25,012 bases of DNA, taken from positions 1-25,012 of IMG/VR virus record IMGVR_UViG_3300017769_000116; one strand, given 5' to 3'. Made by a program: the position numbers and the translations under genes. Numbering within the stretch: position 1 is the stretch's first letter; each line of letters opens with the position of its first letter. This document shows positions 3 through 25,012 of the stretch, piece after piece. Source of the DNA: a virus. The notes beneath the pieces are model-generated. The model was not told where the DNA came from and searched no databases. It saw only the letters and a program-made list of their open reading frames with translations.

Positions 3-980
3 GTTTCGCAAAGGGGCACATCACAGACAGGAATTACAGGAGGCGGTTACAAAAAAGCACCTGATAGATACAACTTTAATGTTGAAACTGCTGGCACTTG
101 GACAGTATCACAAAGCACGACTGCGCCAGAAGGTTTTTCAAACTCATACAAAGTGGAGTGTACGACCGCAGATGCTTCTTTAGCGGCTAGTGATGTAGTT
201 AGGCTTAGACAGAGAATAGAGGGGCAAAATTTACAGCAATTAAAAAAAGGAACTAGTAATGCTGAAAGTGTGACTCTTTCCTTTTATGTTCGTTCTTCTA
301 AAACAGGAACATATATTGTCCAACTCAAAGACCAAGACAATAGCAGACATATAGCAAAATCATACAACATTACATCTGCTAATACTTGGCAGTATGTTTC
401 TATAACTTACGATGGCGATACAACAGGTTCACTAGATAATGACAATGCTGAAAGTTTAGGTCTTCAGTTTTTTCTGGCGGCAGGTTCAAATTTTACAAGC
501 GGTACACTAGACACTTCTTGGGCAACTACTACTGTAGCTAATAGTGCGGTAGGTCAGGTAAACCTTGCAGACAGCACCAGCAACGAGTGGTACATCACAG
601 GCGTACAGCTTGAAGTCGGCGATGTAGCCACGCCGTTTGAACACGAAAGTTTTGCGGCTACTTTGCAGAAGTGTCAGCGGTATTATCAACAAAGCTATGC
701 ACTAGGCACTGTTGCCGGAACCACAACTACAGTCGGTAGAGAAAGCGTGCAAGCAAGCGGTTCTACTTTGTCAACAACAACAAGACTCACTACTGAAATG
801 AGGGCGACCCCAACAGTTACTTGCTTTGGGATATCAACAGGCGCAACAGGCATTGATATTGACGGGTCGGATAGTGCTGGTTTTACTCTTGCAGACCAGT
901 CACCAACTTCATTCCGAGTTGCAAAGGGCGGAACCCCCAGTTATATGAACTACCAATTCACAGCTGCGTCGGAGTTATAA
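3..980 (+). CDS. Phage tail fibre / receptor-binding protein, C-terminal part (5' end outside window)
   Basis: The reading frame is open from base 3, so the first possible start inside the window (GTG at 153) is not the true start; about 325 residues are visible. The opening residues (SQRGTS, then GGGY..PDRYNF) match the RGTS...Y..DR region that commonly begins a beta-rich, carbohydrate-binding-like module at the end of phage tail proteins. The middle has strand-rich stretches typical of such modules (SFYVRSSKTGTY, WYITGVQLEVG), followed by the characteristic FEHESF...LQKCQRYYQQ segment. Family knowledge places these modules on tail fibres or appendages that touch the host surface. That it is the receptor-binding tip is inference. 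The next gene's ATG follows the stop after one base. Confidence 0.72.
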   Translation, partial: VSQRGTSQTGITGGGYKKAPDRYNFNVETAGTWTVSQSTTAPEGFSNSYKVECTTADASLAASDVVRLRQRIEGQNLQQLKKGTSNAESVTLSFYVRSSKTGTYIVQLKDQDNSRHIAKSYNITSANTWQYVSITYDGDTTGSLDNDNAESLGLQFFLAAGSNFTSGTLDTSWATTTVANSAVGQVNLADSTSNEWYITGVQLEVGDVATPFEHESFAATLQKCQRYYQQSYALGTVAGTTTTVGRESVQASGSTLSTTTRLTTEMRATPTVTCFGISTGATGIDIDGSDSAGFTLADQSPTSFRVAKGGTPSYMNYQFTAASEL

Positions 981-1356: not shown

Positions 1357-3240
1357 ATGATGCAGTTCAAAGCGTTTAAACCTGAAGCAATGAAGAAGAT
1401 AGCTGGTGCTATGGGTTACTCAGGTGACATGAACCAGTTCCAGCAATATGTGCAGCAAGACCCACAGCGTCAACAGCAGATGCAACAGTATAACAATGCC
1501 GCAATTCAGATGGCCCGTGGCGGTGTGGTTAAGATGAAGAAGGGTGGGGACACTAAGGGTACGAATAAAAATAGTGAAGTTAACATGGGTAATCTTCCTT
1601 CTTTTACAGCAGGTAGAATACTAACTCCCGGAGTTCCTGAAGGTGGTACAACAGTAGCTGCAGCAGTACCCGAAGATTCATCTCAATACATGCAAGAAGG
1701 TGCAGGACAGGTTACAGGTGCTGGTCCAGTAGATACCGCTTTAGCAAGTACAGCACAGTCTACTACACCTACTGTAACAGACCCAAATTTAGTAGACCCT
1801 AGACTGGTAAAAGATGACGTAGAAGATACTATAGCTGCTACTAATGCAGCACAGGCAAACCCTGATGACCCACGGGCGCAAGTAACTGCGGCAGAACAGA
1901 CTATATCCTCTGTAAGTAACTTAGAAGCAGCACAGGGTAATGCATACCTAATAGATAATCCTGTACAGAGAGACTTACAAGACGGTGAGTTGATTAGTGG
2001 TACAGGTGTAGATGCCGCAAGAGCCGCTAAACTTGCAGAGCAAACACAAGCTGCAGCAGTAACGGCTGACCCATCTGCAAAGGCTATGGTACAGAGCCAG
2101 CTATCCGGTCTTATGGAAGGCTTTGAGGACGGTAAGTCACCCGCATGGGCGGCAGGGGCTATGAGAGCAGCTACAGCAGCTATGGCTGCACGTGGGCTAG
2201 GTTCATCCTCTCTTGCAGGACAGGCTGTTGTACAGGCCGCTATGGAATCTGCTATGCCTATTGCTATGGCAGATGCACAAACAATAGCTAAATTTGAATC
2301 TCAGAACTTGTCAAACCGTCAGCAATCTGCTATGCTTGCAGCAGAGCAACGTGCTAAGTTTATGGGTCAAGAGTTTGACCAGACGTTTCAAGCTAAAGTA
2401 ATGAACGCTAGTAAGATTAGTGACATTGCTAATATGAACTTTACAGCAGAACAGCAGGTACAATTAGAAAACTCACGTGCTGTAAACACAATGAACTTGG
2501 CTAACTTAAATAATAAACAAGCTATGGTTATGGCAGAGGCTTCTGCATTAGCACAGTTGGATGTCTCTAATCTTAATAATAGACAACAAGCAGCAGTACA
2601 AAATGCAAATACTTTTTTGCAATATGATATGGCTAACTTATCTAATCAGCAACAGACGGAGATGTTTAAAGCACAGCAACGTGTGCAGTCTTTATTTACA
2701 GACCAAGCTGCTACTAATGCTGCGGCTCAGTTCAATGCTACTAGTCAAAATCAAGTTGACCAATTCTTTGCTAGTTTAGCTTCGCAGACTTCCCAGTTTA
2801 ATGCTGCTCAACAAAATGCACAGGCTCAGTTTAATGCAGGTCAGGTAAATACTGTAGAAAGATTTAATGCAGAAGCTATTAACCAGCGTGACCAATTTAA
2901 CGCTCAGAACCAGATGGTTATCTCACAGTCTAATGCTACTTGGCGCAGAGAGATTGCTACAGCAGACACAGCAGCAGTCAATCGTGCTAATGAATTAAAT
3001 GCCAATGCTATCCTAGATATATCTAAGTCTGCTTATGATAACTTGTGGAGTTACTATGCAGATACAATGGAGTGGGCATGGACCTCGGCAGACAATGCAC
3101 AGGATAGAATGAATAAACTGGCTATTGCAAAACTAACAGCAGACTCAGATGTTAACATACAAAAAATAAAAGGCGACCAAGAATCCAGTTCAGCATTAGG
3201 TGGCTTTGCGATGGACTTGTTTAAGACCTTTGCTTTTTAA
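1357..3240 (+). CDS. Putative internal virion protein with 11-residue helical repeats
   Basis: This 627-residue protein is very rich in A, Q and N. Its N-terminus (ATG-ATG start, one base after the previous stop) includes a MARGGVVKMKKGG stretch of a kind common in marine phage structural proteins. Residues about 80-260 are low-complexity and acidic. From about 318 to 550 there is a regular repeat: NL(S/N)N(R/K)QQ-like units recur every 22 residues (L or F at 318, 340, 362, 384, 406, 428), then QFNA-like units every 11 (459, 470, 481, 492, 503, 514). Eleven residues equal three helical turns, so this should be one long helix or helical bundle. The C-terminus (SSALGGFAMDLFKTFAF) is hydrophobic. 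No enzymatic motif is visible. A virion, ejection or tail role is inferred from position. Confidence 0.6.
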   Translation: MMQFKAFKPEAMKKIAGAMGYSGDMNQFQQYVQQDPQRQQQMQQYNNAAIQMARGGVVKMKKGGDTKGTNKNSEVNMGNLPSFTAGRILTPGVPEGGTTVAAAVPEDSSQYMQEGAGQVTGAGPVDTALASTAQSTTPTVTDPNLVDPRLVKDDVEDTIAATNAAQANPDDPRAQVTAAEQTISSVSNLEAAQGNAYLIDNPVQRDLQDGELISGTGVDAARAAKLAEQTQAAAVTADPSAKAMVQSQLSGLMEGFEDGKSPAWAAGAMRAATAAMAARGLGSSSLAGQAVVQAAMESAMPIAMADAQTIAKFESQNLSNRQQSAMLAAEQRAKFMGQEFDQTFQAKVMNASKISDIANMNFTAEQQVQLENSRAVNTMNLANLNNKQAMVMAEASALAQLDVSNLNNRQQAAVQNANTFLQYDMANLSNQQQTEMFKAQQRVQSLFTDQAATNAAAQFNATSQNQVDQFFASLASQTSQFNAAQQNAQAQFNAGQVNTVERFNAEAINQRDQFNAQNQMVISQSNATWRREIATADTAAVNRANELNANAILDISKSAYDNLWSYYADTMEWAWTSADNAQDRMNKLAIAKLTADSDVNIQKIKGDQESSSALGGFAMDLFKTFAF

Positions 3241-3252
3241 GAGGATATAAAT

Positions 3253-3459
3253 ATGGCAGATACAAGCGGCGCAAGACTAGCTATCAAACAAGAGCGAGAG
3301 AGTAGACAAAATCGCAAGAGTAATCCTGCGCCTGTTCAACAAAAAAATGCAGGTCTACTATCAAGAACTAGTATGTCTGAAAGTAAGGATGCAGAAGATA
3401 CTTTTTATTCAGATTTAATTATGCGTATTCAAAAAAATATGGGCGATAACAATGATTGA
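3253..3459 (+). CDS. Small hydrophilic hypothetical protein
   Basis: The 68-residue protein is strongly charged, with many K, R, S, D and E and no hydrophobic core or known motif. It starts MADTSGARLAIKQERESRQ. A good Shine-Dalgarno (GAGGAT) lies about 7 bases before the ATG. Its end overlaps the next gene by 8 bases, which fits coupled translation inside the late operon. I do not recognise the family. It is probably a minor virion or assembly protein, judged only from its neighbours. Confidence 0.6.
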   Translation: MADTSGARLAIKQERESRQNRKSNPAPVQQKNAGLLSRTSMSESKDAEDTFYSDLIMRIQKNMGDNND

Positions 3460-3970
3460 TAAAGAAGCACCTGCACCGTCTCTTGACTTACCTATTCCGG
3501 GGCAGAGTTTAACTGCACCTTTAGGTGAAAGACCGTGGCAAGCCCCACCTAGATTTAGTACAGTAGAGAAGACACTAGAGTATTATATTCCTAAACTAAC
3601 TTCTGACCGCATGGCTGGTCAGGCACTAGACTTGCTTGAGTCAGGCGTACCTGTAGATACTCTTGTTGATACTATTCAACTAGGAGGAGTTATGGAAGGT
3701 ATACACAGTGTGGATGTAGGTATACTAGCTTCTCCCGTATTAGCGGAAGTACTTCACCAGATGGCTAAATCAGCAGGTGTAAAGCATAAAATTGTAGGTG
3801 AAGAGATTGACCCAAATATTCCTGACTCATCTGAAATTTCTATGGCTATGAAAGAGGTAGCTAAGAAGAAAGGTGAAAGCATGGCAGAGGATACTACCCC
3901 TGTGGTAGAGGAAGTGCCTATGGATGAAATGGTAGAAGAGCCTAAAGGCTTAATGACACGGAGAGCATAG
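3452..3970 (+). CDS. Conserved marine phage virion-type protein (PGQSLT family look)
   Basis: This 172-residue protein begins with a proline-rich segment (LPIPGQSLTAPLGERPWQ.PP, residues 14-33), continues with a helical core (VEKTLEYYIPKL..., VMEGIHSVDVGILASPVLAEVL) and ends in an acidic tail (EEVPMDEMVEEPKGLM). The opening motif and the 'MEG.HSVDVG' block are familiar from uncharacterised proteins of marine podoviruses and cyanophages, encoded among structural genes. The function is not known. It overlaps the previous gene by 8 bases and its stop is one base before the next ATG, so it belongs to the same transcript. Confidence 0.62.
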   Translation: MIDKEAPAPSLDLPIPGQSLTAPLGERPWQAPPRFSTVEKTLEYYIPKLTSDRMAGQALDLLESGVPVDTLVDTIQLGGVMEGIHSVDVGILASPVLAEVLHQMAKSAGVKHKIVGEEIDPNIPDSSEISMAMKEVAKKKGESMAEDTTPVVEEVPMDEMVEEPKGLMTRRA

Positions 3971-3971
3971 T

Positions 3972-5132
3972 ATGGGTTTTGCAGGATTATCTTTTTTAGG
4001 CGGGGCAGCTAAACGTGGCTCTGAGATACTACAAGAAGAGCGTGATAATGTTGAGCGAGTTACTGACAGTGCGTTAAAGTTCTGGACAGAAACAGGTATT
4101 GGTAAATACAACGAAAGAAAAAACAAGCGTAAAGATTTGTCTATGAAGTTTGATACACTTGTAAACAATGGTTTTTCTGGGGACCAAATAGATGTCATAG
4201 CACGTGAAGGTGGTGTTGATAAGGTATTAAATCATATTGAAGCTATGAAGGCTTCAAAACTACCTGTAAAACCTGCTGATATTGTACGTATGTCAGGGGA
4301 TTATAAAGAAACAGGAAGAACCAAAGACGAAATTATCTCAGGCTACATGGGTAGAGTAAATCGTGGTATGAATATGTCTGATGCTCTGTCTGAATCAGGT
4401 GTTAAAAGTACAGGTTTTTTAGGACAAGACCTAACTAAAATTGCACGTAAAAGAGCAGAGGCTGTTGGTAGTGCTTTTGGTATGCCTATGGGTGAGTTAC
4501 GTGCATTAGCAACTGACGACATTACTATGGACCCTGCTGTAGTCACAGGACAACTATTTTTAGAAGACCCTGTAGCAGCAGCACGTGCTGAAACAACTAT
4601 AGAAGGTAAAGAAACAGGTGCATTTACACAAGGTTCTGCTATGAGAGCCTTGCAAAAACGTGCTGGTGTAGCATTAGGTGTTGACTTAGCCTTTGACCAA
4701 GCTGGAAATCCTATATTCTCAGCAGATAAAGCAGACCTTGCAGCACAAGCATTAGATATAGGAAGAAAAGCTACTGTTGGTTATCAATCTCGCAGAGAAG
4801 AAGATAAAAAAATAACGTCTATTCAAGCACTAGACGCTGCTACTGAAGATATGTTAGCAGGAATATCTAATGTGAGTAATAATCCCCCTTCTTCATCGTT
4901 GGTTGTACAACCGTCCTCTACTGTAGGAACAGGAGTGTATGGGGGCATGACTACTAGTTCTATTCAGGCTCAGGTATTAAAAGATGCTAAAGGTTTATCT
5001 TTACGGCAACAAGTACAAATACTAAATCAAGCTAGAAATGGACTGATACAGGACTTACAAAAGTCCATGACACCTGCAGATGCAGCAGTTGAAGCAGACA
5101 AAATAATCGACAGACTTGAGAGCCAGCTTTAA
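3972..5132 (+). CDS. Putative internal virion protein, helical, 386 aa
   Basis: A short glycine-rich, hydrophobic N-terminus (GFAGLSFLGGAAKRG) is followed by long charged helices (about 15-60 and 240-386). The middle (about 75-200) is of mixed character with no catalytic motif that I recognise. Genes in this position of HMO-2011-type and related podoviruses encode virion proteins of unknown detailed role, several thought to be ejected with the DNA. That assignment is inference from order and composition. The stop codon's last base is the first base of the next ATG (TAATG). Confidence 0.55.
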   Translation: MGFAGLSFLGGAAKRGSEILQEERDNVERVTDSALKFWTETGIGKYNERKNKRKDLSMKFDTLVNNGFSGDQIDVIAREGGVDKVLNHIEAMKASKLPVKPADIVRMSGDYKETGRTKDEIISGYMGRVNRGMNMSDALSESGVKSTGFLGQDLTKIARKRAEAVGSAFGMPMGELRALATDDITMDPAVVTGQLFLEDPVAAARAETTIEGKETGAFTQGSAMRALQKRAGVALGVDLAFDQAGNPIFSADKADLAAQALDIGRKATVGYQSRREEDKKITSIQALDAATEDMLAGISNVSNNPPSSSLVVQPSSTVGTGVYGGMTTSSIQAQVLKDAKGLSLRQQVQILNQARNGLIQDLQKSMTPADAAVEADKIIDRLESQL

Positions 5133-8100
5133 TGCTAAAAAATTATAATCAGATAGAAGAATTAGATAAAGAAACACTAGCATCCGACCCTGAGTTTTTA
5201 CAAGATGCTAGTCTTTTTTTGCGTGAACGTGAGAATATGGATGCTACTGCTTCTCCTGAAGAAGTGTATGATGCCTTCATGGAACACATGCGGTATCAGG
5301 ATGTCAATGAAGTAACTGCTATCCGTGACCTTGAATATGCACAAGGTGCAGACTTAGAGGGTAAGCAACGATTTGGTAGATTGATTGATGCTTATGATAA
5401 AGTAAATGAAGATGTATCAGGCCGTATGATGTGGGATTATGCAGCAGGGGTATTGACTGCACCATCTACTTACTTAGGTATTGTATCAGGTGGTACAGGT
5501 AAAGCTGCTTCTATGGCGGGTACACAAGCAGCAAAGCTAGGCATTCGTAAAATTCTTTCAGAAGGTTTAAAATCTGCAGGACGTGCTGCAGTTGTAGAGG
5601 GTGCTATAGGTACAGGACAAGGTGCTGTGCAGGGTGCTACTCGTGTTGAAACCGGAATGAAAGATGAGTCTGTTCTTGAGAGAGCAGCTATTACTGGACT
5701 AGGTTCTGCTATAGGTGGTGGTCTTATAAACTTTCCTATAGGTATGCTTGCCGCTAAAAAAGCAGCAAAAGCAGACGAACTTCTTGAAAGTTCTCGAATA
5801 GCCAGTTCTGCGAAAGCTAATGAAGCATCTAAAAAATCAGAAGAAGTACTTGCTAACGCATCTTCTGAAAAAGTAAGTGAAATAAAAGAAGTTCTTAATG
5901 CATTAGACCCTACCAAGGTTGCTGAAGGTAGAAGACTGAAGCAGGATTTAGAACCGGGAGATACTCTTGAATCTGCTCTGGGTTCTGATGTAGTTAATAA
6001 TATTGCAGCAGCAGCTATCAGTGTTAAAGATAAACTGAAGTTACAAAAGGGAGAAAGAATAACCACTGCTCTACATAGATTAATCAGTGAAGATAAACTA
6101 TCTGAATTAACAGAGGTAAATAAAATTCTTGAGGAACACAACCTTAATGCTGACCAGTTTTCATTAGTATATTTAGCTGAAATATCTGACGCAGGTAGAA
6201 CTCTTGGCGCACAAGCACGTGTTAAAAAAGCACTAGGCGCAACACGTACAGTTAAACAGCCAGCAGATAAACTTATAGAGGAACTAGACGGTCTAAATAA
6301 AGCAGGTGTTACACCGTTAACAGCAGCAGATGCTAAAGAATTAAGTAAAGGTAAACAGTTTTTCCAAGACTTAGATAGGTTACGGCTAGGTGCTATGACA
6401 TCCCAGCTTGCCACAACTATGCGTAATAATATAGGTGGTGGCTTTCGTGTAGCTGTTGACTCTACAACACGTGCATTTGATAATATTGTTAATCTTAGAA
6501 ATCCTTTTGATGGCACATTTGATGTAGCCAAATATATGCTAAACCCCTACGAAGGTAAGGTTATAAGGCAGATGTTTGCAGAAAACTTTCCAGAAGAATC
6601 TGCTAAACTATTTAGAGAAGCCGCTGACTTAGCTGCTAAGACACCTAATGAAACAGTATTAGCTAATATAGGAAGAAAAATAAATTTCTTAAATACAGCA
6701 TCCGATAATATGTTTAAGCAGGCTATGATTTCTGCCTCTATAAAACGTAGGTTATCAGATGAGGGTGTAGATTTATATGATGTTATTTCCAAAGGAGACT
6801 TTGGTAAAATAGATGATGACATATTGCAAAAAGCCATTGCCGATTCTTACGAGTTTACATATCAGTCTTCTATGAGGGGTGATGATTGGTTTAGTAAAGG
6901 TGCAAGAGGTGTGATAAAAGCACACCAAGAAGTACCGTTTCTTATATCTGCTGTGATGCCTTTTCCACGCTTTATAGCTAACCAGTTAAAGTTTACTTTT
7001 CAACACGCACCACTGATTGGTATGTTACCTTTAGATAGGTTAGGCTCAAAGCTACCTGCAAGAACAACAAAAGAATATATAAAGGACAAGGCACCCAAAC
7101 AATTAACAGGTGCATTGATGCTTACTGCAGCATATCAGTGGAGAGCACATCAAGGTGATACTAATTACTGGTATGAAATAGATGATGGACAGGGTAATGT
7201 AATTGATGGACGTGCTGTGTACGGTCCTTTTGCACCATTCATGCTTGCTGCAGATTTGCTGTATCGTTATCAGCGTGGCACTATGCCTACCTCAATCAGC
7301 ACATACGTAAAGGATACCACACAGGCTTTACTTGGTTCTACTTTCAGAACAGGTGTAGGACTGTATGCTATAGATAAGCTGTATCAAGATGCTGCTAGTG
7401 GAAAACCACAGAAGGTTTTAGCAGAACTCATAGGAGATGTAGCGAATACATATACATTACCACTCGCTGTAGTAAAAGATTTTTATGGTCAGTTTGACCC
7501 TGAATCTCGTAAGATACCAGAGACACGCAGTGGTAGTGAAAACTTCTTAGACATAATATACAATCGTGCTACACGTTCTCTTCCAGATTTTCCTCTTAAT
7601 GACTATGATACTGCTGCCTTATCTGCGTTTGAAACAGGTGACTTATCTGCCGTTAATCCCATGGAAAAACAAGTATTTGGTTTTGGTAAGAGAAAAAAGA
7701 ATACTCTCACAAAAGAACTAGCAAAGTTATCTTTTACGCCTTATGATTTATATAAGAGAGAGTCCAATGATACGTTTGATTTATATGCGAGGCAGGAATT
7801 ATCAAAGGATGGTAGCGAATTTAATTTAGAGCAGCAGTTAGAAAAGCTAATACTAAGTGACGAATATGATAGATTATCTATAGAGGAAAAAAGATACCAG
7901 CTTAAAGTCGCTGCACAGGATTTGATAAACAAAGCAAAAGATATGGCACGGGATAGAGTAGAACGTGATGCTGACCTTAAAGATTTACCATACAGCGAAT
8001 TAGATAGAGATGATTTCCAGAGTGCTAGTGCTTTACAGCAAGGTAGAATAAACTCTATGTATAGAAAACAATTCGGTGGTAAGTCTGTGTCTGAAGACAA

Positions 8101-8197
8101 AGATAAAACTATAATAATAAATGGTAGAGAAGTTAATGTTATGCGGTGGGCCGCTGATACACTACGTAGTTTGCAGGGTAAGGCAGGTAGACTATAA
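5132..8197 (+). CDS. Large internal virion / DNA-ejection-type protein, 1021 aa
   Basis: This is the largest gene of the window. The N-terminal 95 residues are acidic and helical (SPEEVYDAFMEHMRYQDVNE). Residues about 100-210 are rich in glycine and alanine with long weakly hydrophobic runs (GLGSAIGGGLINFPIGMLAA), of a kind that can insert in or cross membranes. The rest is a long, mostly helical region with few recognisable motifs and a charged C-terminus. Size, position after smaller virion genes and the amphipathic stretches resemble the very large internal proteins of podoviruses (the role played by T7 gp16), but no lysozyme-like motif was seen. It starts inside the previous stop (TAATG) and ends the same way. 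Confidence 0.58.
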   Translation: MLKNYNQIEELDKETLASDPEFLQDASLFLRERENMDATASPEEVYDAFMEHMRYQDVNEVTAIRDLEYAQGADLEGKQRFGRLIDAYDKVNEDVSGRMMWDYAAGVLTAPSTYLGIVSGGTGKAASMAGTQAAKLGIRKILSEGLKSAGRAAVVEGAIGTGQGAVQGATRVETGMKDESVLERAAITGLGSAIGGGLINFPIGMLAAKKAAKADELLESSRIASSAKANEASKKSEEVLANASSEKVSEIKEVLNALDPTKVAEGRRLKQDLEPGDTLESALGSDVVNNIAAAAISVKDKLKLQKGERITTALHRLISEDKLSELTEVNKILEEHNLNADQFSLVYLAEISDAGRTLGAQARVKKALGATRTVKQPADKLIEELDGLNKAGVTPLTAADAKELSKGKQFFQDLDRLRLGAMTSQLATTMRNNIGGGFRVAVDSTTRAFDNIVNLRNPFDGTFDVAKYMLNPYEGKVIRQMFAENFPEESAKLFREAADLAAKTPNETVLANIGRKINFLNTASDNMFKQAMISASIKRRLSDEGVDLYDVISKGDFGKIDDDILQKAIADSYEFTYQSSMRGDDWFSKGARGVIKAHQEVPFLISAVMPFPRFIANQLKFTFQHAPLIGMLPLDRLGSKLPARTTKEYIKDKAPKQLTGALMLTAAYQWRAHQGDTNYWYEIDDGQGNVIDGRAVYGPFAPFMLAADLLYRYQRGTMPTSISTYVKDTTQALLGSTFRTGVGLYAIDKLYQDAASGKPQKVLAELIGDVANTYTLPLAVVKDFYGQFDPESRKIPETRSGSENFLDIIYNRATRSLPDFPLNDYDTAALSAFETGDLSAVNPMEKQVFGFGKRKKNTLTKELAKLSFTPYDLYKRESNDTFDLYARQELSKDGSEFNLEQQLEKLILSDEYDRLSIEEKRYQLKVAAQDLINKAKDMARDRVERDADLKDLPYSELDRDDFQSASALQQGRINSMYRKQFGGKSVSEDKDKTIIINGREVNVMRWAADTLRSLQGKAGRL

Positions 8198-10197
8198 TGA
8201 AAGCAAGAGATTTACAAGAAGCTGATAGATTATCTGAATCTGACCGTGAATTAGAGTATTCAATAGATGCTATAGAATTACCGTCAGAACAAAAGTTTCT
8301 ACGTATGCGTCAGGCTGAACCACAGACACTTGATGAAACTATCTCTGACCTACCTATGGTGGCAGAGCAGGCACTAGACTTCACACCTGTAGTGGGTGAT
8401 GTCAAAGCTATGATTGAGATACCAGAAGATATGCGTATGGCACGTGACCTTATGGAACAAGGTTATGATGAGGGTAGCATTATTGATATGGGTCTGGGTG
8501 CTGGCCTTGCTGGTCTAAGTCTAGCTGGTCCTGTGCCTATCATTGGTGATATAGGTGGTGTACTCAAGAAGGGTGTTAAAGCAACAGCCAAGGAAAGACT
8601 AGCTGACCAAACAGAACAAGTGTTTGACAAAGGTATCTCAGATAGAGGCAGAACAACTACATCAGTTGAAGATGCTGAGTTTACTGGTAAGGGTAAACGT
8701 CCTACACCTAAAGTGTTTCATGGTGCCAAGAGCATGGGTCAAGCACGAGACGCCGATGCACAGAGGTATGAAAAGTTACGCCGTGATTATAATGATACAT
8801 ACATAAACAACCCCGTAGATACATTATCAAAAGAATTAGCAGATGACACTGGTTTTATAAATGTTGATGACTTACTTGAAAAACAAGAAGTCGGTGCAAT
8901 ACAACTACCCATAGGTAATGTGGATGGTGAATTAGATACGATACCTGTTATATTTAAAAGAGATGGTGATAAAGTATCTGCGTATGCTATTGATACAGAT
9001 ACCATGAAGATACTAGATGAGAAAGAACCCATAGCTTCTGTGGAAACATATGATGGGGGTAAACGTCTACGTCCTGTTGAGATGCAAATGCAACTTATGA
9101 TTGGTTCCGATGACCTTTCTGTTGCCTCAGACATGGTAGGTGAGAAACGTATTGATGCTATCAAGCGTGAAGGTTTTAGACCTTATGTTGCTGACTACGA
9201 TTACCCAACGGATGAAAGTTTTGTAAGTGAAGTAGGTTTAGGTGGTAGAACTACAGGTGAACACGCTGAACTGAAACAGAAGATGTTGTCTACTTCTCGT
9301 GACCCACTTGTGGCAATGAAGCCTAACTTTGGTGGACGGGATACAGGTAATGTTGTGTATGCTGACTTGCCTGAAGGTGCCACTAGAGATATGACACCTA
9401 GAGAGTATACACTAGTTACTAATAATGATGTCTCAGCGCAGGACATGGTGGATGACGTACCAACAGGGCGTGAAGCATTACCCCCACTAGAGGAGGGTCA
9501 AGTAGGCTACCGACTACCTAAGAGTATACACTTAGAAGCTGAAGAAGCTATCGTCATGCCAGAGAACCTGAACGTCAAGGTGTTAGAAGACAACCCTGAG
9601 TTAGCCGCAAAGATACAGCGCGGTCAGGATATGGTCGATAATATTATTAGTGACGTAAAAGGTATGAGTAATCTTACAGATGACTTAACTAAACCTGCTG
9701 TACAAAAACTAGCATACAACAAAGTAAGAGACACCTTTAAAAATCTACAATCTCTTGGTCAATACACAGAGCAGTATGGCGCACGAGGTACTTATGATGA
9801 CCTGCTTGAGTCTTTTCTTGATGATGAAGCTACCTACCCTTTCTTTAAGAGTATTATATTTGATATGCCTGAACAAATGAAGAAAGGCACAGAGATGTCT
9901 AATAATATGACAGGCCTTCGTGAAGTTATGTTACGGATAAAACAGCAACGAATGCAGGGTGCTAGAGGTAAAGCATCTACAAAGTTACGTAACGTACCTG
10001 ATGATGTTATACGTAGGGCAGTCTTTGGTGGTGGTAAGGTAACAGATACAGAAAACAAAATGTTACAGAAAGCTGGCATAGATGTATTCTTTGATAATAG
10101 TGTTAACTTAGAAAAGCTAGGATATACTGACCTAAAGAAAATACTATTTGTAGGAACACAGAAGTTCAACAGAGGTGGGTTAGCCTCTCGCAAATAA
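8197..10197 (+). CDS. Virion-associated protein with candidate ADP-ribosyltransferase domain
   Basis: This 666-residue protein has an acidic N-terminus, a hydrophobic Gly/Ala stretch at about 95-125 (GLGAGLAGLSLAGPVPIIGD), and then a region with features of ADP-ribosyltransferase folds. These are VFHG at 173-176 (as in the first-strand 'Y/F-HG' motif), STSR at 365-368 (compare the STS motif) and EAEEAIVMP at 447-455 (compare the E.E motif followed by a hydrophobic strand). Such domains occur in polyvalent phage proteins injected into hosts. The first and second motifs are unusually far apart (about 190 residues), which implies an insertion or a false match, so the enzyme call is tentative. 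The C-terminal third is helical. It is the last gene of the late block; a terminator follows within 10 bases. Confidence 0.55.
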   Translation: MKARDLQEADRLSESDRELEYSIDAIELPSEQKFLRMRQAEPQTLDETISDLPMVAEQALDFTPVVGDVKAMIEIPEDMRMARDLMEQGYDEGSIIDMGLGAGLAGLSLAGPVPIIGDIGGVLKKGVKATAKERLADQTEQVFDKGISDRGRTTTSVEDAEFTGKGKRPTPKVFHGAKSMGQARDADAQRYEKLRRDYNDTYINNPVDTLSKELADDTGFINVDDLLEKQEVGAIQLPIGNVDGELDTIPVIFKRDGDKVSAYAIDTDTMKILDEKEPIASVETYDGGKRLRPVEMQMQLMIGSDDLSVASDMVGEKRIDAIKREGFRPYVADYDYPTDESFVSEVGLGGRTTGEHAELKQKMLSTSRDPLVAMKPNFGGRDTGNVVYADLPEGATRDMTPREYTLVTNNDVSAQDMVDDVPTGREALPPLEEGQVGYRLPKSIHLEAEEAIVMPENLNVKVLEDNPELAAKIQRGQDMVDNIISDVKGMSNLTDDLTKPAVQKLAYNKVRDTFKNLQSLGQYTEQYGARGTYDDLLESFLDDEATYPFFKSIIFDMPEQMKKGTEMSNNMTGLREVMLRIKQQRMQGARGKASTKLRNVPDDVIRRAVFGGGKVTDTENKMLQKAGIDVFFDNSVNLEKLGYTDLKKILFVGTQKFNRGGLASRK

Positions 10198-17009: not shown

Positions 17010-19052
17010 TCAGCTTACATCCTTTGTGTCAAGCCAATTATCACCTATTTTTGATTCGAGTAACAGGGGTACATTGAATTGTATGCCCCATCTTAGTGTA
17101 ATCAAATTAGGTAAGTCGTTGTTTGTCTGTTGAATAATGTCTAATACCTTTCTCTCTTCATCAGGATGTACGTCAATAACTATACTGTCATGTACTGTAT
17201 TTACCACACATGACTGCATAGTGTCAAGCAGTTTATCAATATGAAGTAAAGCAATTGGCACAATGTCTGCTGTAGCAAATGACTGAACAGGGTAGTTCTT
17301 TATCTGCGTAAAGTGTGACACCCTGCCGCTTGCCTTACGATATACATTAGGGAAAGCAAACTCTCTGCCAGAAGGTGTGGTTATCTTTAGTGTGTTCACA
17401 GCTTCTTTAGCCAGTTGGGTATGCCAAGACCCAACACCTTTGTACTTCTCTGTGAAGTGTTCATAGTACGCTGCTTCCGCTGGTGTTCTGCCGTATCCTG
17501 TTGCGCCGTAGAGTGGAGCAAACGTATGCGCTTTCGCATCCTGTCTACTCGTAGGCTGACCAGCATCACTAATAACTTTAGCGGTATATGAGTGTACATC
17601 AAATCCAGTAGATACTTCTTCAATTGCTACTCCATCTTGTGATAAGAAAGCGGCGGTACGAAACTCAAGCTGTGCCATGTCAGCTTCTAATACCTTGCCG
17701 CCCTTGAAACGTGATACGAATACCTTCTTAACAGGAAACGTACCACCCCGTGGCATGTTCTGCATGTTAGGGTTAGCACCTGATAGTCTACCTGTAGACG
17801 TGCGATGCTGTAATAAACTAACATGCAACTTACCATCACTCTTAGTGTAGTTGGCAATGCCGCCCACGAATGATGATAGGTATGTATCAACGGCACTCAG
17901 TCGGCTTACCTTGCCTAAGAAGTCAACCGCATCGTCCATACCCTTTGCTCTAGCTGAACTCTGTAGTAACTGTAGGTTCTGCTTAGAGGTACTGAAGCCA
18001 TTGGCACTAGCCCACTTAGCAGATGGTGGCTTAAACTTTAGCCCTGCCACATCACTAGTAGGTACGAAATTATAACCGCTAGTATTACATGCCACACATC
18101 TATTTGGCTTTGCAAAAGGAGTTCCATCTTTCTTTACCTTTCTAATATAACCAGTGCCACTGCAATCACCACACTGCTCTGCTTTGGTTTTGTATAATCG
18201 TGTTGTACCAGTAGCTGTTAGGCTACGGAAGGAAGCATCGTCCATGTATGGGTCAATGCTATTAGCCCAATGTAGTTTATCATCTACCTTACGAGAGTAT
18301 ATAACCCAAGAGAGTTGCTCTGGACTATTAAGATTAATAGGTGTATCACCCATAAGACTACGAACATGCTTTTGTAATGCATCAAGTAACTCCTTCTTCT
18401 CTGCTTCAAACTCTTGGCGTACCTCATCCAGCTTGGATATATCAACAGAGAAACCCCTGCTGTATATCTTAGCTAGGCATACAGCCACCTCATTAGTCAG
18501 GGTAACAGTAGGCATCAGCCCTGCATCCTCTACACTGTTAAGACGTAGCATTAGCTTGTCAGACAGTTGCTGTGTAGCATGAAGGTCAGCAGATAGATAC
18601 TCACACAACTCATTGTATGGTATGTCTCGTGTACTGTATCCCTTCTTGAAGTATTCCTTCAGGGTATCCTGCTTTTTAGTGTCTAACTCATACCGTTCAG
18701 CGCAAGCCTCAAGAGATAGCGGTTGCTTAATACCACGCTGTAGTACATACTCACCCAGCATAGTGTCAAAGACAGGGCCATCATACTTGAAGCCGGATTC
18801 CCATAGCCATGTCAAATCATATGCAGCATTATGCATGATTAATACCGTAGCTTGGTCAAGATACCACTGCACACGCTCATGGTAGTCAGCTTGACTAGGT
18901 ACATCTGCATGGTCAAAAGGGAAATGCTGTTCATGTCCTTGGTCAGTCAGTATACCTATCATAGTCAATGAGTTGTTAGGCTCAAAGGGGTCAAGGTGCA
19001 TCTTACCATCTCGTTCTGTTGTTGTATTCTCTACGTCTAGTGTTAGCTTCAT
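17010..19052 (-). CDS. polA: Family A DNA polymerase with DnaJ-like zinc-finger insert
   Basis: This 680-residue replicative polymerase has an N-terminal 3'-5' exonuclease: D6-x-E8 (LDVEN), N75...D79 (HNAAYDL) and D156 (LSADLHAT). The polymerase motifs are A with D458 (DMAQLEFR), B with R503, K507, F511 and Y515-G516 (RQDAKAHTFAPLYG), and C with H621-D622 (HDSIV). Between the domains lies an insert at about 290-326 with two DnaJ central-domain-like zinc motifs, C294GDCSGTG and C319VACNTSG. This arrangement is the known hallmark of HMO-2011-type phages. F511 aligns with E. coli Pol I Phe762. The start overlaps the helicase stop (ATGA), with GAGG 8 bases upstream. Confidence 0.95.
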   Translation of the reverse strand: MKLTLDVENTTTERDGKMHLDPFEPNNSLTMIGILTDQGHEQHFPFDHADVPSQADYHERVQWYLDQATVLIMHNAAYDLTWLWESGFKYDGPVFDTMLGEYVLQRGIKQPLSLEACAERYELDTKKQDTLKEYFKKGYSTRDIPYNELCEYLSADLHATQQLSDKLMLRLNSVEDAGLMPTVTLTNEVAVCLAKIYSRGFSVDISKLDEVRQEFEAEKKELLDALQKHVRSLMGDTPINLNSPEQLSWVIYSRKVDDKLHWANSIDPYMDDASFRSLTATGTTRLYKTKAEQCGDCSGTGYIRKVKKDGTPFAKPNRCVACNTSGYNFVPTSDVAGLKFKPPSAKWASANGFSTSKQNLQLLQSSARAKGMDDAVDFLGKVSRLSAVDTYLSSFVGGIANYTKSDGKLHVSLLQHRTSTGRLSGANPNMQNMPRGGTFPVKKVFVSRFKGGKVLEADMAQLEFRTAAFLSQDGVAIEEVSTGFDVHSYTAKVISDAGQPTSRQDAKAHTFAPLYGATGYGRTPAEAAYYEHFTEKYKGVGSWHTQLAKEAVNTLKITTPSGREFAFPNVYRKASGRVSHFTQIKNYPVQSFATADIVPIALLHIDKLLDTMQSCVVNTVHDSIVIDVHPDEERKVLDIIQQTNNDLPNLITLRWGIQFNVPLLLESKIGDNWLDTKDVS

Positions 19053-21045: not shown

Positions 21046-21963
21046 TTAATCACTTTCCTTTGCGGCACTTGCTATGCTTATAGCATGTATTTTTCTATCG
21101 GTCAATGCCCTATCTGCACTTGCCAATGTATTTTTTAGGTACGGCTGTACTGATTGTGGGTTAGCATGTCCTGTAACCGACATTATTTGTGCCATACCGA
21201 CACCTGCATCTACCATTTCTGTTGTACCTGTACGTCTTAGGTCAGACAGACGTAACTCTTTAGGTAATCCCGCAGCATCCATGACCTCACGTGCATATAG
21301 AGGCAGCTTGTACAAGGTATAAGGTTCGTACTTACCCCTGATAGGGCGTGGTCTTGGTGCCACATACTCTTGAAAGCCGAAGTCCTCTTGTTGTTGTACT
21401 AGCATACTGTGTAGTTCATCCGATATAGGCAGGAATACTTCTGCTCTACGCTTAGACTGCTTGATGTGTACTGTCTGTGCATCAAAGTCAATGGCATCCC
21501 ACGTAAGCATACGCATATCACCAAGACGTTGACACCATTCGTATGCCATCTGTGCTATCAAACCTATGTTACGGGTGCTAAAATCCGCATAGGCTTCGTC
21601 TAAGAACTTTTGTACATCACCCCTACCCCAGACAACCTTACGCCTCTCAGCGGCTCTCTTACGTACCGTAGCGAAAGGATTGGTCTGACACAGTTCTTCT
21701 CGCACCCCATGATTAAACAGGATACGAGTGACAGAGATAGCATGGTTAGCTAAGTGGATACCCCTGTCACACCATTCGTTGTATGCTGTCTTAGCCATGC
21801 GTGTGGTAACTTTATCACAGTCAAGCAAATAAAGTGCCTTGCCATCTACCTCTGTGTTCATCAAGATGTTGGCAAAGTATTTATACTGTGCTTTAGTTTC
21901 ATCCCGTAACTGTTTGTAATCATAGGAAGAAAGGTAGTCCTGTAATAGTTTATTTAGTTTCAT
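21046..21963 (-). CDS. int: Tyrosine recombinase / integrase
   Basis: The 305 residues have a helical core-binding domain (1-105) and a catalytic domain with R146 (YEWCQRLGDMR), a lysine in the beta-hairpin (IKQSK, 168 or 171), R243 in LSDLRRTGTTEM, H266 in SVTGHANP, and nucleophile Y275 (QPYLKNT). The position that is histidine in the HxxR motif of most family members is S240 here. This is tolerated in some related enzymes. The gene lies inside the replication operon, not beside an att site, and no repressor, excisionase or tRNA-like att site was seen. It may serve integration or resolution of concatemers. AGGAG precedes the ATG within the ADP-ribosylglycohydrolase gene. Confidence 0.9.
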   Translation of the reverse strand: MKLNKLLQDYLSSYDYKQLRDETKAQYKYFANILMNTEVDGKALYLLDCDKVTTRMAKTAYNEWCDRGIHLANHAISVTRILFNHGVREELCQTNPFATVRKRAAERRKVVWGRGDVQKFLDEAYADFSTRNIGLIAQMAYEWCQRLGDMRMLTWDAIDFDAQTVHIKQSKRRAEVFLPISDELHSMLVQQQEDFGFQEYVAPRPRPIRGKYEPYTLYKLPLYAREVMDAAGLPKELRLSDLRRTGTTEMVDAGVGMAQIMSVTGHANPQSVQPYLKNTLASADRALTDRKIHAISIASAAKESD

Positions 21964-21964
21964 G

Positions 21965-22819
21965 TCATCTCCTCATGTTATGTAATCTAAATGCTTGACT
22001 TACCAGCTTGTCATACCACATCAAGTTATCCTTGAAGTGAGATGGTATATCCTCTAGTCCGTAGTGTGCGCCAGCTATCATGCCAGCTACAGCACCACAC
22101 GTATCGCTGTCGTGTCCTCTGTTGACCGCCTTGATAACGCAGTCGGCAAAGTTATTCGTAGTTTGGTACGCCCACATAGCACACTGATATGTCTCTACTA
22201 CATAGCCACCTGACATAACATCCTTCCTATCTGTGTTAAAGGGTAGGTTGTATGACTGATACCTTTGTAGTGCGTCACCGTGCCACAGTTGATGGGCGAA
22301 TACCCTGCTGTACTCAATACATTTAGGGCTACCGTGTGTCAGTATAGTCGTAGCAATAGCCAGTTCCATAGCACGTTCAGGTGTGGCTGATGCAATCACT
22401 GCAGGTGCAAGTCGCATCAAGGCACCGTTACCCGAAGCATCGTCAAATGATACAGAGTTATATGAGTAACCAGATTTATTGTTAATCCATTTCTCTATAG
22501 CGTCTTGTGTTGTAGTACCAATGTCAAAGCATTTACCTCTTGGTATAAACTCACCCTTCATGTACCAGTTGTACCAGTTGTGCATCATATCTTCTGGATT
22601 GAACTCTGCTAGATGGGTTGACAGTGAATCAGCCATAGCTAATGCCATAGCTGTATCATCTGTCCACTCACCGATGGACATATCGTGATGCCCACCAGTA
22701 ACATACTTAGTTATATAATCATCAGGTTCTCTAGCGTCCATGAACTCAAGGGGTGCGCCAAGAGCGTCACCCACTGCAAGTCCTACCATCATACCTGCTG
22801 ACTTGTCAAGTGTCAACAT
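21965..22819 (-). CDS. ADP-ribosylglycohydrolase (DraG/ARH family)
   Basis: The family removes ADP-ribose from modified arginine or other targets, using two magnesium ions. The metal-binding signature is complete: GLAVGDALGAPLEF (13-26), W52-T53-D54-D55-T56, GNGALMRLAP (130-139) and RGHDSDTCGAVAG (234-246, with D237, D239 and T240). The chosen start is ATG 22819, which shares a base with the previous stop (TAATG) and has GAGG 8 bases upstream. An upstream ATG would add 14 residues, lying over the DUF932 gene. Phage copies have been proposed to reverse host ADP-ribosylation, including defence-linked marks, or to control modification placed by a phage enzyme. The specific target cannot be read from the sequence. 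Confidence 0.92.
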   Translation of the reverse strand: MLTLDKSAGMMVGLAVGDALGAPLEFMDAREPDDYITKYVTGGHHDMSIGEWTDDTAMALAMADSLSTHLAEFNPEDMMHNWYNWYMKGEFIPRGKCFDIGTTTQDAIEKWINNKSGYSYNSVSFDDASGNGALMRLAPAVIASATPERAMELAIATTILTHGSPKCIEYSRVFAHQLWHGDALQRYQSYNLPFNTDRKDVMSGGYVVETYQCAMWAYQTTNNFADCVIKAVNRGHDSDTCGAVAGMIAGAHYGLEDIPSHFKDNLMWYDKLVSQAFRLHNMRR

Positions 22820-23673
22820 TATGCTGCCTCTAGTTGTCTGAACACAGGGCTTGCAATCCACTGAGACACTTGGTTCTCACGATTGAACATGGACACAGCC
22901 TGTGTGTCATTGCCTGTGTTGCGTAGGTTAAAGCCGTTACGCTCATCCGCATAGGTTGCATAGTTAGTAAAGGCACTATACAAAGCAAACAGATTACGCC
23001 CTCTGGTACTCACCTCTTGGTTGTATAAGGTATACATCTTGGTAGCCTTAGTGTCTGACTTCATAAGGGTTTCAAGCAATGCCTTGACATCTACTGTGTT
23101 AAGGTCACGCCTTGCCCACGATTGTAGACGCTCTGACTGTGCATAGAAGTCCTGCTGTGAGTTACGTAAGTCAGAGATGAACCTGTCCATGCTAAAGTTA
23201 GATGTGTTCTTACGCCGCACCTTGTCATGCTCACCTCTAATCATACCATTGAGGCAGAAGAAGTCGATAGCCCCAAAGAATACTGTGTTAGAACAGCTAC
23301 CGTCAATCCCATGCAGTGCAATGATACGCTGTGAGATAGTAGTCTCATGCTTGTCAGTGGTGATAGTGGTGGACACGTTAGGCATACGCACATCCATCAT
23401 AGCCCATGCATTCTTACGTGCATACTTCCACTCAATTTGTGCGCCATCTGTCTCAGTACTTGTCAAGTTCTCTAGCATGGTATCTTGTACGCCATGAAAG
23501 AAGTCCTTGTGTGAGGCACAGTTGAAGCCCTCGCCTACAATACCAATGTATTCATCTGTCTCGCTGTTGATGACATACTTCTTATCCTTCACCTTGGTAG
23601 GCTCGTAAGCTACGGCAAAGTCTAAGTGTTCTGGAACCTGTTCAATTATTTGTGTTGTAAAATCTAATGGCAT
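22819..23673 (-). CDS. DUF932-family phage protein
   Basis: The 284-residue protein matches the DUF932 pattern of phage and plasmid proteins: a mixed alpha/beta N-terminus (KKYVINSETDEYIGIVGEGF), a block ALHGIDGSCSNTVFFGAIDF (119-138) and the conserved cysteine motif C140-L-N-G-M144, followed by a helical C-terminal half. The function is unknown; no catalytic motif is recognised. It is the first gene behind the sigma70-type promoter, with GAGGAG 6 bases from the ATG and a leader of only about 23 bases, so it should be among the earliest and best expressed genes of the operon. An early takeover role is inference. Confidence 0.8.
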   Translation of the reverse strand: MPLDFTTQIIEQVPEHLDFAVAYEPTKVKDKKYVINSETDEYIGIVGEGFNCASHKDFFHGVQDTMLENLTSTETDGAQIEWKYARKNAWAMMDVRMPNVSTTITTDKHETTISQRIIALHGIDGSCSNTVFFGAIDFFCLNGMIRGEHDKVRRKNTSNFSMDRFISDLRNSQQDFYAQSERLQSWARRDLNTVDVKALLETLMKSDTKATKMYTLYNQEVSTRGRNLFALYSAFTNYATYADERNGFNLRNTGNDTQAVSMFNRENQVSQWIASPVFRQLEAA

Positions 23674-24439: not shown

Positions 24440-24605
24440 CTTGTTTATCCTTTCCTGACAGATACTTAGGTGTCTTAGCATCCTTGTCGTTCAGCTTATC
24501 AATAACATTGCCGCATACATAGCAGTACATCTTTGATGCTAACTGCCGCAGCTTATTAGATATGTACTGTGTATTCAAGCAGTGCTTACATATGTGTTTA
24601 ATCAT
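24432..24605 (-). CDS. Small zinc-ribbon protein, 57 aa
   Basis: A short frame starts MIKHICKHCLNTQY and has two CxxC pairs, C6-x2-C9 and C28-x2-C31 (YCYVCG), 18 residues apart, the layout of a zinc ribbon. The C-terminus is lysine-rich (KDAKTPKYLSGKDKQDG). The ATG shares ATGA with the stop of the SleB-type hydrolase and the end overlaps the next gene by 8 bases. It is too small for an enzyme; a nucleic-acid- or protein-binding adaptor is likely, for example in transcription, but that is inference. Confidence 0.72.
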   Translation of the reverse strand: MIKHICKHCLNTQYISNKLRQLASKMYCYVCGNVIDKLNDKDAKTPKYLSGKDKQDG

Positions 24606-25012
24606 TGGTCATGCTCCCATCTATAAAATATATGTTCACCTATTTGTACTACCTTTGTCTTTGTCTCAGCCCAATCAGGCCGCACATAGCTGGCGTGGTA
24701 GTGTGTTGCACCTTCAACAAAGTCATCCAAGTGTCCATTCATTACACCATGTGCAACTAACATAGACCTGTTGTGTGCCTCTACATCAGGTGTCTTGTCA
24801 CTCTTACCATCACAGTACCAACTAAACTGACAGCGATTGCGTACAGGAAAGTCTGTATCCCATGAGTATGTCTGGCCCTGTTTAACTACACCACACACAT
24901 CATCAGGGTAACGCTCATCACGTACTCTGTTCATCACTACCTGTGCCACAGCAACCTGCCCAATGAAGGGCTGGTCACGTGCCTCGTGATACACGTTGAG
25001 TGCTAGGCATAC
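24602..25012 (-). CDS. SleB-type cell wall hydrolase (5' end outside window)
   Basis: The frame is open to the right edge of the window; the visible 136 residues begin VCLALNVYHEARDQ, the usual core start 'LALN.YHEAR', so the true start is beyond base 25012. The Hydrolase_2/SleB pattern continues with VAVAQVVMNRV, VCGVVKQGQTYSW, CQFSWYCDG and GATHYHASYVRPDW, ending IGEHIFYRW. In the family a glutamate in the N-terminal helix (YHE) is catalytic and cleaves peptidoglycan glycan strands. In phages it acts as an endolysin or helps DNA entry. No signal peptide can be assessed because the N-terminus is missing. Confidence 0.88.
   Translation of the reverse strand, partial: VCLALNVYHEARDQPFIGQVAVAQVVMNRVRDERYPDDVCGVVKQGQTYSWDTDFPVRNRCQFSWYCDGKSDKTPDVEAHNRSMLVAHGVMNGHLDDFVEGATHYHASYVRPDWAETKTKVVQIGEHIFYRWEHDQ

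Follow-up and report, generated by a model that had tools for sequence, protein, structure and literature searches.

A predicted helical rod of quantised length in the protein that heads a putative ejection cassette of HMO-2011-type podophages

What does the long 11-residue (hendecad) repeat in a 627-aa phage protein build, and what keeps it in register? The protein (hereafter the rod protein; 1357..3240, plus strand; an open reading frame with tblastn support from phages) is encoded in the window, the whole 25,012-base stretch analysed here, which is an uncultivated virus record. A sequence-only reading had pointed to large residues at 22-residue and then 11-residue steps, and every residue that it named is in its place: L318, F340, F362, L384, L406 and L428, followed by F459, F470, F481, F492, F503 and F514, with S525 and L547. 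The repeat begins at 2308 (residue 318), as given there; the end had been put at 2998, one base beyond the last base of residue 547 (2997). Identity autocorrelation of residues 318-547 against 2000 shuffles gave z of 5.4, 5.7, 5.8 and 6.8 at lags 11, 22, 33 and 44, and residues 1-295, used as control, gave no lag-11 or lag-22 signal (z -0.3 at lag 11). The repeat is thus non-random, as claimed. When large hydrophobic residues were scored alone, the expected lag-11 signal was weak (z 1.8-2.2, p 0.02-0.06) and that at lag 22 strong (z 6.1), which indicates that the N half is a 22-residue repeat, a plain 11-residue one being confined to the C half. Residues 318 to about 449 repeat every 22 residues and residues 459-547 every 11, with a step of 31 between them. 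In 99 relatives of equal length, the hydrophobic spectrum of the C half peaked at 98 degrees per residue (three turns per 11 residues), and there was almost nothing at 103 degrees (heptad). The parts of the protein are as follows.

1357..2076, plus strand: variable N-terminal region, residues 1-240, whose length differs freely among relatives
2089..2307, plus strand: conserved predicted helical block ahead of the rod, residues 245-317, with the P301 anchor at 2257-2259
2308..2703, plus strand: N half of the rod (residues 318-449), made of 22-residue (2 x 11) units; z near 6 for hydrophobic residues at lag 22
2638..2733, plus strand: joint L428-F459, the sole phase step, 31 residues in 245/245 relatives listed
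2731..2997, plus strand: C half of the rod in 11-residue QFNA units, residues 459-547, with the W529 anchor at 2941-2943
3016..3237, plus strand: helical region at the C terminus (residues 554-627), to which some relatives add, or for which they substitute, an S74 chaperone domain or a different extension

Among relatives, position a of the C-half hendecad is F (large hydrophobic in 80% of cells), with N at b (83% N/Q), A at c (76%), N at g, V or I at i and Q at k; positions d, f and j are more variable. The N half is built of LxNxQQ-type double hendecads, hydrophobic at a, i and, on the opposite side, g. In the N half, one face (b, f, j, c) is amide-rich and poorly charged, consisting largely of N, Q, S and A, and the face opposite to it (d, h) carries R, E and D. 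Second-harmonic tests reached weak nominal p values (0.013 for hydrophobicity in the N half, 0.02-0.05 for conservation in the C half) on an axis of about 40/220 degrees in both halves. This is suggestive, and only suggestive, of two opposed seams, such as a helix with packing partners on either side might show. An AlphaFold2 model of the monomer was helical over most of residues 285-625 (pLDDT 38-78 in the rod, pTM 0.29), and Foldseek with this low-confidence model found nothing but unrelated coiled coils. When the rod protein and the family profile were searched against PDB sequences (E up to 1), there was no match except one irrelevant; matches to designed helical proteins were dismissed as compositional. 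The rod protein had no informative PHROG match and no S74 domain, and Pfam placed no domain above cut-off in any of the window's seven structural proteins.

Relatives were taken from phage records and from viral and genome contigs as best matches, with up to 80 loci per list. Over its whole length the rod protein is 62.6% identical (tblastn) to phage1322_25 of Puniceispirillum phage HMO-2011, and the C-terminal 77 aa of that relative occur in no other phage record. The replication genes too are of HMO-2011 type by sequence (family A DNA polymerase, B12-dependent ribonucleotide reductase, ThyX-like protein), and we class the virus as an HMO-2011-type podophage. The polymerase gene (17010-19052, minus strand) encodes a cysteine-motif insert (CGDCSGTGYI...CVACNTSGYN) such as has been reported for HMO-2011-type polymerases (PMC9038755). 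Close to the contig end lies a SleB-like cell wall hydrolase, again by sequence (24602-24994, minus strand). Two further products of the minus strand were recognised by sequence only: one is ADP-ribosylglycohydrolase-like (21965-22861, 298 aa), the other tyrosine recombinase/integrase-like (21046-21963, 305 aa). This phage group is usually regarded as lytic, and an integrase-like protein is therefore unexpected. The genes around the rod gene are these.

153..980, plus strand: C-terminal part of a tail fibre upstream of the cassette (phrog_4492 tail fiber protein, E 3.9e-44)
3253..3459, plus strand: small open reading frame of 68 aa between rod protein and partner
3452..3970, plus strand: acidic partner of 172 aa with the motif P.PG.SLT....W..P, a member of the downstream family
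3972..5132, plus strand: fast-evolving 386-aa cassette protein, by its position gp15/gp20-like among ejection proteins
5132..8197, plus strand: fast-evolving 1021-aa protein of internal-virion or polyvalent type (AlphaFold2 pTM 0.64; fold matches in BFVD)
8197..10197, plus strand: fast-evolving 666-aa protein, the final gene of the rightward block

The order rod, partner, mid-size protein, giant protein recurs in named relatives, the partner and sometimes one more gene lying between the rod gene and that of the mid-size protein. At 197 of 198 testable loci a member of the acidic partner family (about 170 aa) is encoded downstream of the rod protein; the family occurs in 26 of 50,697 phage records, a set nearly identical to that of the rod protein. 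BLAST found no homologue of the 68-aa frame. In BFVD the model of the 1021-aa protein matched large polyvalent phage proteins as well as a Synechococcus phage S-RIP1 entry named 'Internal virion protein' (E 3.5e-6), and Foldseek against the PDB gave nothing; PDB sequence searches with the partner and with the 1021-aa profile yielded nothing useful. A 353-aa frame antisense to the 1021-aa gene (5470-6531, minus strand) is probably a by-product of codon usage. In relatives on contigs with long rods, the last cassette proteins match the endolysin-bearing giant family phrog_7348, as would suit an ejection set that includes a murein hydrolase, and the genes upstream of the rod match tail, virion structural and fibre families. 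Three contigs encode a protein of 355-480 aa between rod and partner (L211 11360-12424, L223 12448-13545, L240 11308-12747); with its lysine-rich amphipathic N terminus and glycine-rich hydrophobic stretch (MGFFSKVWKGVKKGFKKIGKGIKK...) it is a possible membrane-inserting ejection protein.

The claim that the rod protein belongs to the virion draws its support from this gene context; a search for virion proteomics or a structure of any family member found none. The rod gene heads a cluster in front of mid-size and giant putative internal proteins, as genes of first ejection proteins do. It shares with T7 gp14, P22 gp7 and the gp7-like S74 proteins the place at the head of an ejection cassette and, in the family, the C-terminal S74 fusion. 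The large helical proteins encoded next to it are plausible counterparts of those that form periplasmic tunnels, T7 gp15/gp16 and DEV gp72/gp73, to which the window proteins showed no match in sequence or fold. Nor did the rod protein match any solved ejection protein in sequence or fold. First ejection proteins are also shorter, about 180-240 aa (PMC8954989), and the gp7-like ones compared here measure 270-410 aa; the rod protein is far longer, and no sequence homology with the gp7-like proteins was seen beyond the S74 region.

The S74 domain was found in 3 of 15 diverse rod-family members. In three Roseobacter phages it forms the C-terminus of the rod protein, and one of those S74 rod proteins (CRP-235, L093) has an N-terminal LysM region. 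The same domain is found at the C-terminus of annotated first ejection proteins (gp7-like, 'DNA transfer/injection') of P22-like marine podophages, among them the first of the three that are annotated in Pseudoalteromonas virus H6/1, and of a Vibrio phage 199E37-1 product annotated 'DNA transfer protein'. H6/1 gp17 (L264 4143-5219, 'putative ejection protein') resembles the rod protein further in a weak 11-residue periodicity (z 2.8, 4.1 and 5.2 at lags 11, 22 and 33), which was absent from the three other S74-bearing proteins checked. The 'DNA ejection protein' family phrog_4287 was matched by two relatives and phrog_6121 by three, mostly through the S74 domain. On the whole, the evidence tips the balance, by a modest amount, toward a first protein of a podophage ejection cassette whose rod assembles in register with its own copies. 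This class is absent from the sequence-only reading and fits better than the three offered there (fibre, tape measure, membrane-surface helix).

Among those three, an external fibre or tail needle has a small chance, although the gene order fits it less well. The rod would then be a parallel, for example trimeric, hendecad coiled coil serving as the shaft of a receptor-binding fibre, with S74 as its folding chaperone. S74 is indeed typical of fibres, and most S74 matches here are annotated tail fibres; moreover, the rod gene directly follows tail fibre genes, and rods of up to 130 nm would be more apt for a fibre than for an internal part. However, the rod is among the best-conserved parts of the protein, and it is the N terminus and the C termini past the conserved tail that vary. 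In fibres, variation usually lies at the receptor-binding tip. Also against a fibre, the rod gene heads an internal-protein cassette and has an almost obligate partner, S74 terminates annotated ejection proteins at that very position, and the conserved surface is largely N, Q and A rather than a large hydrophobic core. We therefore consider a fibre unlikely, if still deserving of attention.

To measure the rod across the family, two non-repeated residues placed by profile HMMs were used as anchors: P301, which is P in 244 of 245 listed relatives, and W529, which is W in 240 of 245. Among the matches listed, the distance from P301 to W529 equals 8 modulo 11 in 245 of 245 relatives. At least 20 different lengths were found, ten of them being 151, 162, 173, 184, 217, 228, 239, 250, 283 and 305 residues and ten longer ones 316, 338, 426, 448, 459, 470, 536, 646, 756 and 866, so that the rods of the listed relatives hold about 14 to 79 hendecads. 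Rod length thus changes only in units of 11 residues, or about 1.65 nm of helix. The single phase slip noticed between residues 428 and 459 also proved genuine and invariant, the step being 31 residues in all 245 relatives among the matches listed. As a control, the lengths of the N- and C-terminal flanks in 68 sequence clusters occupied all 11 classes modulo 11. An earlier anchoring by regular expressions had put 174 of 179 on the grid; the five off-grid lengths were rejected, one as a wrong W anchor (L004, 219 corrected to 173) and four as wrong upstream PIA matches. A figure of 1.6e-20 for the grid assumes independent lengths and is not taken as a probability. The repeat frame was kept in all relatives examined, which, with the helical model, bears out the extended, phase-conserved helix of the sequence-only reading. 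Neither of the outcomes named there as refuting the repeat, a signal no better than that of shuffles or a frame lost in relatives, was seen. Very probably, then, the rod is a helix held in hendecad register.

A count of repeats in relatives, to see whether length tracks tail or virion size, had also been proposed. The number does vary between relatives, and a link of rod length with host was sought and not found. Among phages of host strain FZCC0040, the rod measures 217 in CRP-207 and 162 in CRP-3 and CRP-235, which indicates that the host envelope does not set it. Rods of 426-866 residues would, if straight, be 64-130 nm long, more than a periplasm or a podophage head, so that the long members must fold back or act otherwise; an 866-residue rod (130 nm straight) can neither be one straight trans-envelope tube nor fit unbent inside the head of a podophage. 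L211 (6096-11357), L214, L218 and L231 encode rod proteins of 1400-1750 aa, whose 22-residue units keep perfect register and show a super-repeat of 110 residues. These lengths bear on another explanation, in which the helices are an internal head scaffold or spool, a core that organises DNA or ejection proteins and forms no tube. The internal position in the cassette, the N/Q-rich surface and the variation of length independent of host would agree with it, but rods above about 50 nm would need to fold back inside the head, and we give it a rather small chance.

Might the grid arise with no need for register at all? Neutral unequal recombination, by gain or loss of whole 33-bp units, would by itself yield multiples of 11, and the series 316, 426, 536, 646, 756 and 866, with its steps of 110 residues, suggests block duplication. 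However, the repeats are old and diverged (DNA self-identity in register 0.36-0.45, protein about 0.2-0.36), and 0 of 245 listed proteins are off the grid while the flanks are free to vary; gain of units accounts for the steps but not for the lack of every other indel. The neutral explanation thus seems very improbable. Because the units are old and diverged and no length leaves the grid while the flanks vary, we infer from these sequences that the helical register is kept by selection rather than produced by recent slippage; the pattern is hard to explain otherwise.

The closest known repeat to that of the rod is the F/W repeat of tape measures: 11-residue F/W repeats occur in about 5% of the long-tailed phage tape measures examined (PMC3271669; PMC5099701). 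In those of lactococcal p2, TP901-1 and staphylococcal phages a long predicted helix is marked by F or W at 11-residue intervals, and their lengths differ by repeat units, as in the rod, where an aromatic residue recurs every 11 positions from F459 to F514. They belong, in contrast, to long-tailed phages and their length is tied to the tail, whereas the rod comes from short-tailed phages and consists of N/Q-rich QFNA and NLxNxQQ units. HMO-2011 and Aeromonas phage MQM1 are described as podoviruses (PMC6256558; PMC10410586), and for named members electron microscopy without a long tail is already on record. On L211 and L223, contigs with long rods, the genes beside the rod are for short-tail and fibre-type proteins, and no tail tube family was recognised among the neighbour proteins scanned (window; L211, L223). 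That the rod is the tape measure of a long tail, as the sequence-only reading allowed, is therefore scarcely plausible. Equally faint is the chance of its third class, an amphipathic helix on a membrane surface like those of apolipoproteins, synuclein or perilipin, since for all its 11-residue periodicity and the single hydrophobic stripe of the C half, the rod is N/Q/A-rich with few lysines (K 2.1%, N+Q 32%), shows no lysine-flanked lipid-facing stripe, and has its conserved N, Q and A spread around the helix rather than confined to one lipid-facing side.

We return to the ejection-cassette protein, for which we infer the oligomer, its location and its contact with DNA. Heading a podophage cassette of internal or ejection proteins, it would form over residues 318-553 a long, nearly straight alpha helix of 11 residues per three turns. 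Multiple copies, aligned in exact register, would pack laterally into an elongated helical bundle or tube, which would be stored in or near the head and leave it with the other cassette proteins. The assembly might then line or extend the path of DNA across the envelope, in the manner of the H tube of phiX174 or the ejection proteins of T7 and P22, with its N/Q-rich, weakly charged face toward the DNA. Such a conduit role is possible, with the chances somewhat against it.

The closest working model for this function, by analogy, is phiX174 H, in which hendecads followed by heptads form a DNA tube with a lumen lined by N, Q and R (PMC7354561). Both proteins have hendecads in a long Q/N-rich helix and a register transition within the rod, and a role in DNA passage is hypothesised. 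phiX174, however, is an ssDNA microvirus, and its H protein has only three hendecads before the heptads (PMC7354561), whereas the rod family is all hendecad, with about 14-79 units, and belongs to a dsDNA podophage cassette, with a putative tube. PDB searches gave no sequence homology of the rod protein to phiX174 H, and by sequence the rod appears homologous neither to that protein nor to the tape measures.

HMO-2011-type phages have been reported to dominate in the ocean and to be widespread there (PMC9038755), and no study was found in the literature on how their DNA moves across the envelope. In the open-access papers searched, no account of hendecads or 11-residue repeats in internal proteins of podophages was found. 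The repeat, first seen in one protein, is widened here to a family-wide rule. The 11-residue length grid is an unusually sharp constraint, and it implies neighbouring helices in register over hundreds of residues; structure and function are directly testable. Our tentative proposal is a modular, length-quantised, all-hendecad helical DNA conduit or ruler, resembling a tape measure without a tail, in short-tailed dsDNA phages. If this is true, it would link the tape-measure repeats of long-tailed phages with the DNA-conducting helical tubes of tailless and short-tailed ones, so far separate ideas, and the rod would have come in evolution to span about 14 to 79 hendecads, always with the single invariant joint and with an exact 11-residue register obligatory throughout.
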